This document shows positions 48,601 through 54,600 of a stretch of 64,000 bases of DNA, piece after piece. Below the pieces are notes generated by a model. That model was not told the origin of the DNA and did not search any database. It was given only the letters and a program-made list of their open reading frames with translations. Origin of the DNA: Patiria pectinifera. Lineage: Eukaryota; Echinodermata; Asteroidea; Valvatida; Asterinidae. Position 1 is the stretch's first letter; each line of letters opens with the position of its first letter. The stretch is from positions 1,612,001 through 1,676,000 of the forward strand of contig CM057141.1 in the NCBI GenBank assembly GCA_029964075.1. The letters are read 5' to 3'. Position numbers and translations under genes: made by a program.

Positions 48601-51600
48601 GCCAGGGAGTAAAAAATATTAATCCATGTTTTCAAGCAGGTTCAATTTCAAAACAGATTGTATGCAGGTGTACTTGTATTTGTACATGTGCTCATGAAAC
48701 TTCTGTCGGTCAAGGTATGAAAAGTTTTGTGTCAATCAACAACCAAAACAGCTTAAGACATTCTGATGATATTTTGCCCACATAAAAATGTGTGAACACT
48801 CTAAACCACCAATTTTAGCCGTGCAGAATAGAATACTCTGTTGAGAATTGATGACACAACGTCTAGTTTATAATTCAGTTGAGACATGGTTAAATGGCAG
48901 TGAATACTTTTAGATATTCCATTGAACCCATCAATCAGGGCTAGTATACATGTAAATGTACATGAATGAGGCGTGATTCATAAGTTGGTGGTCAAACCTC
49001 GAAAGTCACTAGTTCCTGAGAATTAAACCTGGAAAATGGAAAAACTTGAAAAATTTGATCCAATGAAAAAATCAAACGAACGAACGAAAAAATGTCAACA
49101 TTGTCTCTCGGAAGATTGTGCCGAGTCCGTTTCTGTTCAGGTCCAAGGAGCTTTGGGACCCTGTCACTCTATAATTGAAGGGCATTGATATCCTGACTTT
49201 AATAAGAACAAAGAATATTCCATGGAGTTAATGCATAGTTTTGAGGCTACACAAAGCTTCCTTCATATTTTGTATGCAAATTGTTGTGTCTGTATAGTGT
49301 CTATGCACTTTCAGATGAATTGCATGTATGCACAAAAAGTCTCCAGTTACAGAAATGGAAATTCCGGAGTGGTCCAGAGGAAAGACAATATGTTGAGACT
49401 TTGGGTTAGGAATAAATTACGAGGTCAATTGAAACTGTGCCACTGCATTGATCATCCGATAATATGCAGTACTGTGTGGTCGACAGAGTTGACTTCAGCA
49501 TCGCATATGACATTATTTTAGAGTGGAGTAATTGTTTATTCTGCTTTAAGCATTAATTGAAGTCAGTTGACAGAAAGATGATCCTTTCTTAAATTTGTCA
49601 GTAATTTGTTTCCATTATTATTGAAAGTATTAAATTTCAGACAGTGAGCAAGCAATTTTGATGGAGGCATGATCTCTATATAGAATCTGACTTTATCCCG
49701 TATGACACACAAGACACAAGCACTCTTCTGCTGTACTAAGATAACATAAAATGATTGGACTTGTACAAAATCAGTCATTTAGATGTTACCTGCTACAGAC
49801 ATGGTGACCTCAAAAGAAAGAACTGATTAGAGCACTGTTTCAGTACAAATTATGACATAATTCACAGATGTCCCGCATGACACGTTTTTCCTGTCCCGTA
49901 CGACGCGCGGTGCTAAAATTTGTAAACTCTTTCTATTCGACATGTTCAATCAAAATTTTACTGGAGAGATCCTAATATCTGACCTTCCTTTAGATGTTTT
50001 TTTGAATGTTTCCAAGTAGGTTAACAGAATCTGCCACAGATGAACTCACAGAGATTTTTTACCCAAATTCATTGTCAAAGTTGAAAAAGTTCTACATCTT
50101 GCACGTTACTTTTTTAGGGATATTATTCTGAAAAGTAGTATTTCTGCCGAGTTTATGCTATTTTATTGTGTCCCAGAATTTTTTTTTTGTATAGACCTTT
50201 GTGGACAGATTGACAAAATTAACTTACATAAACAACGCACACCTTTCAAATCCACAATTTTTGTTAAAAATCTGTTATTTCTTTGATTTCCATTGTTGTG
50301 TAGATCACCATACTGAATGGCATGGGTGTAACAGGACGAGTCATTGAGAAACCAGTGTGGCAGCCATTCACGCCGCAGAACGGTGACAAAATCGAGGTAA
50401 AACATGTCATTGTGTTAATTGTAATTGTGTTACAGTAATTTCCTACTTTTAAAACAGCAAGAAAGTTAACCAAAATTAAAAAGAACATTATATGTACAAT
50501 AAGTTTAATCTTTTTTTAAAGGGAGTGTTTGAATCCAATAGTTTCTAAAGTACATGCAGTATTGTTGCTGTCCCCTAATGTGGTGCACCTCCTAACATGT
50601 CCTATTCCAGCATTCTGTGGCCGTGGTCTAGAATGTCATGTCACAGTATCATTTTGTTCTATCCATCCAGGTTGCTATGTCCTATTCCAGCATTCTGTGG
50701 CCGTGGTCTAGAATGTCATGTCACAGTATCATTTTGTTCTATCCATCCAGGTTGCTATGTCCTATTCCAGCATTCTGTGGCCGTGGTCTAGAATGTCATG
50801 TCACAGTATCATTTTGTTCTATCCATCCAGGTTGCTATGTCCTATTCCAGCATTCTGTGGCCGTGGTCTAGAATGTCATGTCACAGTATCATTTTGTTCT
50901 ATCCATCCAGGTTGCTATGTCCTATTCCAGCATTCTGTGGCCGTGGTCTAGAATGTCATGTCACAGTATCATTTTGTTCTATCCATCCAGGTTGCTATGT
51001 CCTATTCCAGCATTCTGTGGCCGTGGTCTAGAATGTCATGTCACAGTATCATTTTGTTCTATCCATCCAGGTTGCTATGTCCTATTCCAGCATTCTGTGG
51101 CCGTGGTCTAGAATGTCATGTCACAGTGTCATTTTGTTCTATCCATCCAGGTTGCTATGTCCTATTCCAGCATTCTGTGGCCGTGGTCTAGAATGTCATG
51201 TCACAGTATCATTTTGTTCTATCCATCCAGGTTGCTATGTCCTATTCCAGCATTCTGTGGCCGTGGTCTAGAATGTCATGTCACAGTATCATTTTGTTCT
51301 ATCCATCCAGGTTGCTATGTCCTATTCCAGCATTCTGTGGCCGTGGTCTAGAATGTCATGTCACAGTATCATTTTGTTCTATCCATCCAGGTTGCTATGT
51401 CCTATTCCAGCATTCTGTGGCCGTGGTCTAGAATGTCATGTCACAGTATCATTTTGTTCTATCCATCCAGGTTGCTATGTCCTATTCCAGCATTCTGTGG
51501 CCGTGGTCTAGAATGTCATGTCACAGTATCATTTTGTTCTATCCATCCAGGTTGCTATGTCCTATTCCAGCATTCTGTGGCCGTGGTCTAGAATGTCATG

Positions 51601-54600
51601 TCACAGTATCATTTTGTTCTATCCATCCAGGTTGCTATGTCCTATTCCAGCATTCTGTGGCCGTGGTCTGGTTTCCTGGCCGTCTCTCTCACAGTCTCCA
51701 GCAGTGCAGCATCATGGGAGGGCATCGCACAGGGTCAAATTACACTCACGGTGGAGTCGCCACCAGAGGTAGGTCAGCTTGCAGCAGGGTCAAACTCATC
51801 ATTATTTTATTTGTACTGTCAGTGCTCTTCTAAAATTCCAGGTTTTGTTTCTAAAAATTTTGAGCTTGTGTGTTTTCGTTTTTTCAGTTTTGGGTGTTTT
51901 GGTAATACGTATTAAAAAACAACAGACACATGAAATAAACAATGAAATCGTGACTGGTTGAACTCTTTAAGAATATGTGAACAAGTACCCTTTCTCCAAT
52001 CCTCATGGACAAAATGTGTTTCTAATTCTATTTAGACTGGTGAGGATCAACCACGGCAGTCAGTTCTCAAGCTACCGGTCAAGGTCCACATTGTCCCCAC
52101 GCCGCAACGTAACAAACGCATCCTATGGGATCAGTATCACAACCTGCGCTACCCGCCTGGGTACTTCCCACGTGATAATCTACGCATGAAGACCGATCCT
52201 TTAGATTGGTAGGTTCATGAATTCTTGATGTATCTTTAGCCCATTTCACACTAGAGCCTCTCAACCCGGGTTGAACTCAACCCTGGGCGAACCCTGGGAG
52301 AACCCAGTGCCGCCCCGGGTTGAGCTTTAGATTTTTCAAACCCGCGTTCAACCCCGCATCGTTTCAAACTTGTTTCATGCAAATCAAGCTAATCATGCTC
52401 AGTTACTACTGTTTTGAACCCTGGCAAGAATTTCAACCCGGGTTGAAAATCTCAACCCTGGTCTGGAGCAGGGTTGAGTTCAACCTGGGGCGAAATCAAT
52501 CTCCGGGTTGACGCAGGGTTGACGCAGGGTTGAAATAATTCAGGTGTGAAACGATGCATGTTTTCAACGCTGCGTCAACCCTGCGTCAACCCCTAGATTT
52601 GTCTAGTTCTATCATGCTTGATGCCTAGTTTCGCATTCATGTGCATTGCATATCCTCTATCTACATCTGTAGAATACTGTGCGAACTCCTTAGTAGGTTA
52701 TCCAGCGCAGGGCACAGACGGGTTACTTAGCAACATATTAATTAAGAGCCACCTTTGTGAGTGTGAGGAGAGTTCTGTTGTTGATTTTGGATTTGAAGAC
52801 ATTTAGTCTTGGTGAGTCCCCCATATCTACTGGTAGAGCGTTCCCTTGGGCTACAGTTCTTAGCAAGAAGGAAAACTTGTAGCAATCCTTTTTTGTTTGA
52901 GGACGAGAGAATGACAGGCCTGAATTTTGTCCAGTGAATCTTCTTTGGCTGGTAATGACAAAAAACTTGTTGACATTGATGAAGGCAAGCTGATGGCGAG
53001 CTTTGTACAAGACGATCCGCCGATACTGAGATGGCAGATAGGGAGGAAAGACAAAAGTGGTTTACGGAGTTGTTTGATTTATCCATTAGCACCTGTTCTA
53101 CATGTATTTTGTATTACAGTGGAATCTTATTTATAAGTCAAACCTCAGGGGAATTGGCTCAAATTTTGAGTTAAGCAGAGTTTTGAGTGATCCAATGGAT
53201 TTTTCTATTCAACAACAATAATTGACGGGAATAAGTTTTTACTTTGAGTTAGATGGGTTTTTGAGTTAACAGGTTGTGACTTATCGAGATATCACCTGAT
53301 GAATCCCTGATGAATCCAGCCACAAAATCATAGAGTGCTGAGGTAGTGTAGGGGCGTACAGGGAGTAACAGGAAGGGCAGTTCAGGCACTAATGAGTTAT
53401 TGTTTTTGTTCCATTGTCACAAATTCTTGGAGTCAAACTGAGTTTGTTTTATCTTTTGTCTTGTCAGGAATGGTGACCACATCCACACCAACTTCAAAGC
53501 CATGTATCAACACCTGAGGGAAGCTGGATTCTTTGTGGAAGTTTTGGGAGCACCGTTCACATGCTTCGATGCTAAACAATATGGTAAACACAAAATTCCA
53601 TTTCATACTTTATCTCACTTGGTTGAGTTTGGTAGCAGTCACATACATGTGAGTGCAAGTCAATGTTTACGGTTTTGTTGACGGTACCGACTTTCCACCC
53701 TCAAACCATGTTATATTTGTGACCTGTTCTGTCAAAAGCAGACGCTTCTGGGCAGAGGTTGAAATTGAGATAGGGCCAAAAAACGCTGTGGGGGTGATTT
53801 TTTTCGATTTTCAAATTTTTGCATATTTGTAATCCTGAACATGTCTAAAATATACTATAAAAGTTTGAAACCCTAATTTGAACTCTAAATATAGTATTTT
53901 TGATGATTTGTTAAGGTATATCAGTTAAAGAAATTACTGTTTTGTGACGTTCGTGGCCATTTTCTCCGTTTTCTACTTTTCGACACAATGAACTTCAAAA
54001 TAGCATAACTCTGCCCAGGAATGACCGGTTTCAAAACTTAAACCACCTATTAAAAGGAAAAAGAACATTTTTTAACAATATGCAAAAATCTCATTTTGAC
54101 CTTATGCCCAGAAAAGTCTGATTTTGACAGAACAGGTCACATTTGTATATCATTTTTCCACAGTATAGACACCACAATCATTCTGGTTGACTGCCACAGT
54201 CGATCGTTTAACTGAGTTTCTCCTTACTGTTTCACAGGTCAAACATTTTGTGTACTTTACTCCTCAGATTTATTTGTTATAGCGTGACGCTGGAACACCA
54301 GTCTGAAACAGCTGTTAAGCTTCTTTAAGAAGTGCCAGTTCTGATAGTTTAGTGTCTGAAGTCTTTTCATATGTGGTCTTTCCTTCTCTTGTTTTTTCTA
54401 GGAACTCTCCTTATTGTTGACCCAGAGGAGGAGTTTTACCCCGAGGAGGTGTCCAAGTTGAAGCGTGATGTTGATCAGGGCCTGTCTGTCATCATCTTTG
54501 CTGACTGGTACAATGTCACTGTCATGAAGAAGGTGAAATTCTACGATGAGAACACAAGGTAGGTTGGCCTGGGCTGGTATCTAATTGAGGTATTGATTCT

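Follow-up and report, generated by a model that had tools for sequence, protein, structure and literature searches.

A minisatellite across an intron/exon boundary of MBTPS1 repeats one acceptor thirteen times in the sea star Patiria pectinifera

Introduction

Mirage minisatellites are tandem repeats that extend over intron/exon boundaries and have been described in amphioxus, where the available text of two reports names Adh3, the globins BflGb6 and BflGb9, troponin C, and PGBD5 (PMC3087553, PMC3902484). PGBD5 was added as a mirage gene in the account that cites Adh and troponin C (PMC3902484). As far as the available text of both reports extends, units span either acceptor or donor boundaries, an authentic copy is kept on the exon, the units are concerted and nearly identical, and the regular mRNA is reported to be undisturbed. 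The accessible portion of one report also sets out a model of intron growth or gain through duplication of exon boundaries (PMC3087553). A second comparable system is the human UBC gene, which contains a tandem array of dual-specific AGGT sites that are described, in the accessible part of the source, as weaker than single-use sites; each unit carries a fixed AGGT, so that the joint is unchanged when whole units are removed (PMC10809524).

Here we describe tandem units across an intron/exon boundary of MBTPS1, within a 64-kb stretch of the P. pectinifera genome that we call the window. The array is of a known kind, recurs in this genome, and lies in a phylum for which a search of the open-licence literature, with most subscription papers outside it, found no earlier report of a boundary minisatellite. 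Like the amphioxus mirages, it consists of nearly identical units that span a boundary, and conservation of the protein would require that the authentic copy be the last one, on the exon. Unlike them, its host is an echinoderm and not a cephalochordate, and whereas BflGb6 is described in the available text as having 3 and 6 units with 81 to 100% identity, MBTPS1 has 13 acceptor copies and one substitution. The likeness to UBC lies in the fixed AGGT of every unit and the joint restored by whole-unit removal. The UBC units, in contrast, are coding and comprise whole ubiquitins, whereas the MBTPS1 unit is 80 nt long, half intronic, and not a multiple of 3, and its use as a donor is only possible. 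The array reported in the original prediction is indeed there, but the surprise was overstated, since the amphioxus cases were already in print (PMC3087553, PMC3902484; available text).

Results

Seventeen MBTPS1 exons were mapped on the plus strand from 39289 to 56242, with part of human site-1 protease as guide; the junctions are predicted, and the 5′ end of the gene lies outside the map. The 15 internal exons among those mapped are 68 to 221 nt long. Splice-site and branch-point scores were calculated from approximate matrices. The features at the array are as follows, in window coordinates and with a slash at the intron/exon or exon/intron boundary.

50304..50396, + strand: MBTPS1 exon before the array, 93 nt with GAG at its end, followed by donor gtaaaa (alignment, script, and donor scoring)
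50589..50596, + strand: CTCCTAAC, highest-scoring branch-point candidate of the intron (6.7), with its A at 50595, adjoining the left end of the array
50597..51669, + strand: tandem array, 13 full 80-bp units plus 33 bp (TRF and script)
50671..51631, + strand: thirteen identical acceptors CCATCCAG/GTTGCT, every 80 bp (script)
51128..51128, + strand: substitution A>G in the intronic part of a unit (script)
51630..51636, + strand: boundary AG/GTTGCT, possible dual-specific site, common to all full units (donor score)
51631..51768, + strand: MBTPS1 exon using the last acceptor, 138 nt, with donor GAG/gtaggt (ungapped alignment of the joined exons to 8uw8)

When 50304-50396 was joined to 51631-51768, all 77 residues aligned without gaps to human site-1 protease (8uw8, E = 8.5e-35). 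This alignment upholds both the earlier assignment of the gene to MBTPS1 and the claim that the conserved protein comes from the last acceptor alone. For 50597-51669, TRF reported a period of 80, 13.4 copies, 99% matches, and a score of 2139; by script, the 80-bp period is interrupted on the left at 50596 and on the right at 51670, and 51128 A>G is the one substitution among all units. Each unit combines the first 39 nt of the exon (GTTGCTATGTCC...GGTCT) with the last 41 nt of the intron (AGAATG...CCATCCAG). The array begins, on its intron side, 6 nt inside the exonic part and ends, on its exon side, 39 nt into the real exon. The 13 sites CATCCAG/GTTGCTATG place the last intron base at 50670+80n and the first exon base at 50671+80n, the final one being 51631, and AGGT, the core of dual-specific arrays, stands at 13 of 13 unit boundaries. 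The unit count, the single substitution, and the acceptor positions given in the original prediction were reproduced, and the near-identity of the units agrees with the recent expansion it proposed.

Chance is far from able to give a 1-kb array with 99% identity, and the MBTPS1 array is real in the assembly, where a search of 613.5 Mb found it at a single place. Across the assembly, the flank 51670-52240 matched only itself; a second haplotype is therefore absent from it. Older, diverged units were sought in 50397-50596 and rejected: local alignments to three units were matched by 131 of 300 and 181 of 300 shuffles. RNA structure that might hide acceptors was also considered, and the fold of three units gave z = −1.75, with 13 of 200 shuffles as good. 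When 32 mapped MBTPS1 edges were compared with 36001-60000, the one match besides the array proved to be an inverted repeat within the intron that follows 39342. The intron that follows 52208 contains, at 52505-52592, two short arrays of 11-bp units, GGGTTGACGCA and TCAACCCTGCG, in roughly inverted orientation to one another. Searches of the 64-kb window against Rfam and for tRNAs found nothing.

The predicted frame arithmetic also held. By script, the frame shifts when the acceptor used lies one or two units upstream, with no stop inside the exon itself, and acceptors three to five units upstream meet a TAG as codon 67; those farther away carry the same sequence. The exons opened by upstream acceptors would measure 218 nt, 298 nt, and more, up to 1098 nt, versus 138 nt from the last. 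The unit acceptor scores 6.8 bits, fifth highest among the gene's 16. As a donor, GAG/GTTGCT scores 0.9 bits, below all 16 predicted MBTPS1 donors (5.4 to 12.6 bits), and at this score it is not a recursive splice site in the sense of an acceptor followed by a consensus donor.

A branch-point score of 6.7 or better occurs at just 6 of 14,560 positions in the 16 MBTPS1 introns, a scarcity noticed after the fact. Inside the unit, the best candidate scores 3.12, the lowest best candidate among the 16 introns. Were the intronic part of a unit placed straight after CTCCTAAC, the A would precede the acceptor by about 42 nt, which is a normal spacing. Because CTCCTAAC abuts the array and its A would sit at that distance, we infer that the array probably grew in the space between CTCCTAAC and the acceptor. 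The first AG past the 50595 branch point is 50609-50610, and its use leads, as read from the sequence, to a TAG within seven codons; strict first-AG scanning from 50595 would therefore fail to yield the protein.

Arrays of the same kind occur elsewhere in this genome. TRF was run on 200 kb beside the window, which together with it makes 256 kb of contiguous sequence, and found two further large arrays that cross a splice site, both on the donor side. A genome-wide search for a pattern of three AGGTGAGT one unit apart returned 280 matches, and its backward control 57; the matches listed fall in about 11 places, most of them in one array on C7, so these counts are no test of enrichment. Two of the places listed were picked for their coding-looking units.

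C13:1507083-1508495, donor side: AFG3L2-like gene, 87-bp units, ten AAGGTGAGT donors (TRF)
C13:1551356-1552368, donor side: cathepsin Z-like gene, 101-bp units, ten GCTGGTGAGT donors (TRF)
L031 802-1238, intron, donor side: NADSYN1-like gene, 5.2 units of 89 bp (pattern search, then reading)
L032 474-1849, donor side: coiled-coil exon, 81-bp array, 17 copies (pattern search)

Protein alignment backs boundary arrays in three genes besides MBTPS1. Joined to the next exon, the first donor gives an ungapped alignment to AFG3L2 in the AFG3L2-like gene (6nyy, E = 3.8e-54) and to procathepsin X in the cathepsin Z-like gene (1deu, E = 1.1e-57). Donors 2 to 4 of the AFG3L2-like gene keep the frame open, each adding 29 residues, whereas the remaining six run into a stop; in the cathepsin Z-like gene, all nine later donors reach a stop in the first intronic piece. 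The exons of the NADSYN1-like gene join without gaps onto 6ofb (E = 2.4e-22). About 404 of the 437 nt in its intron (length by reading) are array, made of copies of the preceding exon end, and the intron is a candidate for enlargement or birth by boundary duplication. It resembles the intron-growth model in that exon-edge copies enlarge an intron; MBTPS1 departs from the model: some 200 nt of intron to the left of its array (50397-50596) are unrelated to the units, and no intron is seen at a new position. The L032 unit is 27 codons long and open across many copies, and unspliced copies could be translated. This coiled-coil exon had no Pfam match; by eye, we take it to be CEP290-like.

In all four genes, the conserved protein depends on the copy that adjoins the intact exon, which is the last one in the acceptor array and the first one in the donor arrays. 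On the intron side, the arrays of MBTPS1 and of the AFG3L2-like and NADSYN1-like genes end inside the exonic part of a unit, and the cathepsin array ends in the intronic part; such positions are not predicted if one segment was simply duplicated in tandem once. Within the 256 kb, six arrays have a period of 60 or more and at least five copies, and three of these cross a splice site; this proportion does not prove enrichment at splice sites, because it includes the MBTPS1 array from which the study started and is not scaled to exon density. For the other three large arrays, 7 of 12 edge frames were compared with Pfam, and two of the seven gave weak matches below the curated cut-offs; with three frames from smaller arrays added, the total was three weak matches in ten, all below those cut-offs. 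Among the matches listed for AGGTGAGT, the richest region is C7:3282061-3322401, where units of about 91 bp occur in blocks over some 40 kb.

A 103-bp array at 8243-9049 (7.9 copies, 97% alike) was considered as a second mirage in the window and rejected: it touches no exon and sits, by eye, between exons of a minus-strand gene, which we take to be purine nucleoside phosphorylase-like. At 1655-2151, a 27-bp array of 17.7 copies lies in a long minus-strand open frame adjoining sequence that looks C-type-lectin-like by eye; the same unit recurs in arrays at C13:1603440-1603597 and 1605423-1606032. The minus strand of 28683-31427 holds an uninterrupted 914-aa open frame, apparently intronless over that length, that ends in a RING, which by eye we presume to resemble that of MDM2/MDM4. 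Elsewhere in the genome, the Pfam family Bindin matches C11:9439569-9439766 (E = 1e-33), where the open frame partly reads DLGLLLRHLRHHSNLLARIGDPDVKKEVLSAMNE, presumably the bindin core; bindin belongs to the sperm of sea urchins and sea stars, and the match speaks for an echinoderm and against amphioxus as host. GFP, which is present in amphioxus, was not found in the genome, a weak negative, since the controls were also without a match. A COX1 search of the genome, for the mitochondrial code, gave no match.

Discussion

The best explanation, to which we assign a probability of about 0.6, is a mirage-type boundary minisatellite of recent expansion in which exon definition chooses the last acceptor and the others are decoys. 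A segment with the intron end and exon start of the single MBTPS1 copy would have been duplicated into the intron and would recently have expanded, probably via unequal exchange or slippage, so that every copy except the last would be a decoy inside the intron. Exon definition would most likely pick the last acceptor, the sole one in a normal 138-nt exon with its own downstream donor; a mis-chosen acceptor would lead to a frameshift or a TAG, and its product would probably be lost to decay. Several observations favor exon definition: the conserved protein requires the last acceptor, 138 nt fits the 68- to 221-nt range of internal exons, in the three further genes with donor arrays the conserved protein likewise depends on the donor next to the intact exon, and the amphioxus mirages are reported to leave splicing undisturbed (PMC3087553, PMC3902484). 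Against it, the 218-nt exon from the next acceptor up is still within the MBTPS1 range, so exon length by itself cannot rule out that acceptor. The weakness of the in-unit branch point, the poorest best candidate of 16 introns, also counts against this explanation, as does the reliance on approximate matrices for predicting the splice junctions. The original prediction reasoned from a preference for the first AG after the branch point. This preference is not the sole rule, as exon definition can favor the copy on a full exon, though the alternatives raised alongside it keep some weight.

The array may instead mark a leaky allele, in which splicing frequently goes to upstream acceptors, productive transcripts are a minority, enough correct mRNA is left, and array length sets the level of site-1 protease. 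An equally strong acceptor in each full unit, the position of the strong branch point at 50595 nearer the first units, and the frameshift or TAG that follows upstream acceptor use all point this way. However, amphioxus mirages are reported, in the available text, to leave the regular mRNA undisturbed (PMC3087553, PMC3902484), and we regard a leaky allele as unlikely.

We are more doubtful of stepwise re-splicing, by which a splice to an upstream acceptor would recreate GAG/GTTGCT and be followed by another to a later copy. Since the boundary AG/GT would be rebuilt at each step, all paths ending at the last AG would give the identical, correct mRNA. This route retains some plausibility because AG/GT stands at every boundary, as it does in the human UBC array with its weak tandem sites (PMC10809524; accessible text). 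Against it stand the recreated donor, far below any predicted MBTPS1 donor, and the donor arrays of the other genes, in which the right site can be chosen without such a device. It is quite improbable, though conceivable, that boundary minisatellites are a genome-wide class here and that, in addition, the 13-site AG/GT chain of MBTPS1 self-corrects by 80-nt re-splicing to the same mRNA; if so, whichever acceptor were used first, the array could grow without harm.

An assembly error, in which the assembler lengthened what is truly a short array or a lone unit, is very unlikely: the units are almost identical and the second haplotype is absent, but assemblers usually collapse perfect repeats, the array sits in a contig of 25.9 Mb, other genes of the genome have arrays with diverged units, and the artefact that the original prediction allowed for loses likelihood because three other conserved genes here carry arrays of the same kind.

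What is new at MBTPS1 is (i) the echinoderm host, (ii) how many acceptors compete and that they are identical, and (iii) a hint that such arrays are common here. Splice-boundary minisatellites, which our searches of the open-licence literature had shown in cephalochordates only, are thereby extended to an echinoderm, with several in conserved genes of one genome and three, MBTPS1 included, in 256 kb of one chromosome. Thirteen identical rival 3′ splice sites offer a clean natural test of exon definition versus first-AG scanning versus re-splicing. As the NADSYN1-like intron suggests, boundary arrays may be raw material for longer or new introns.
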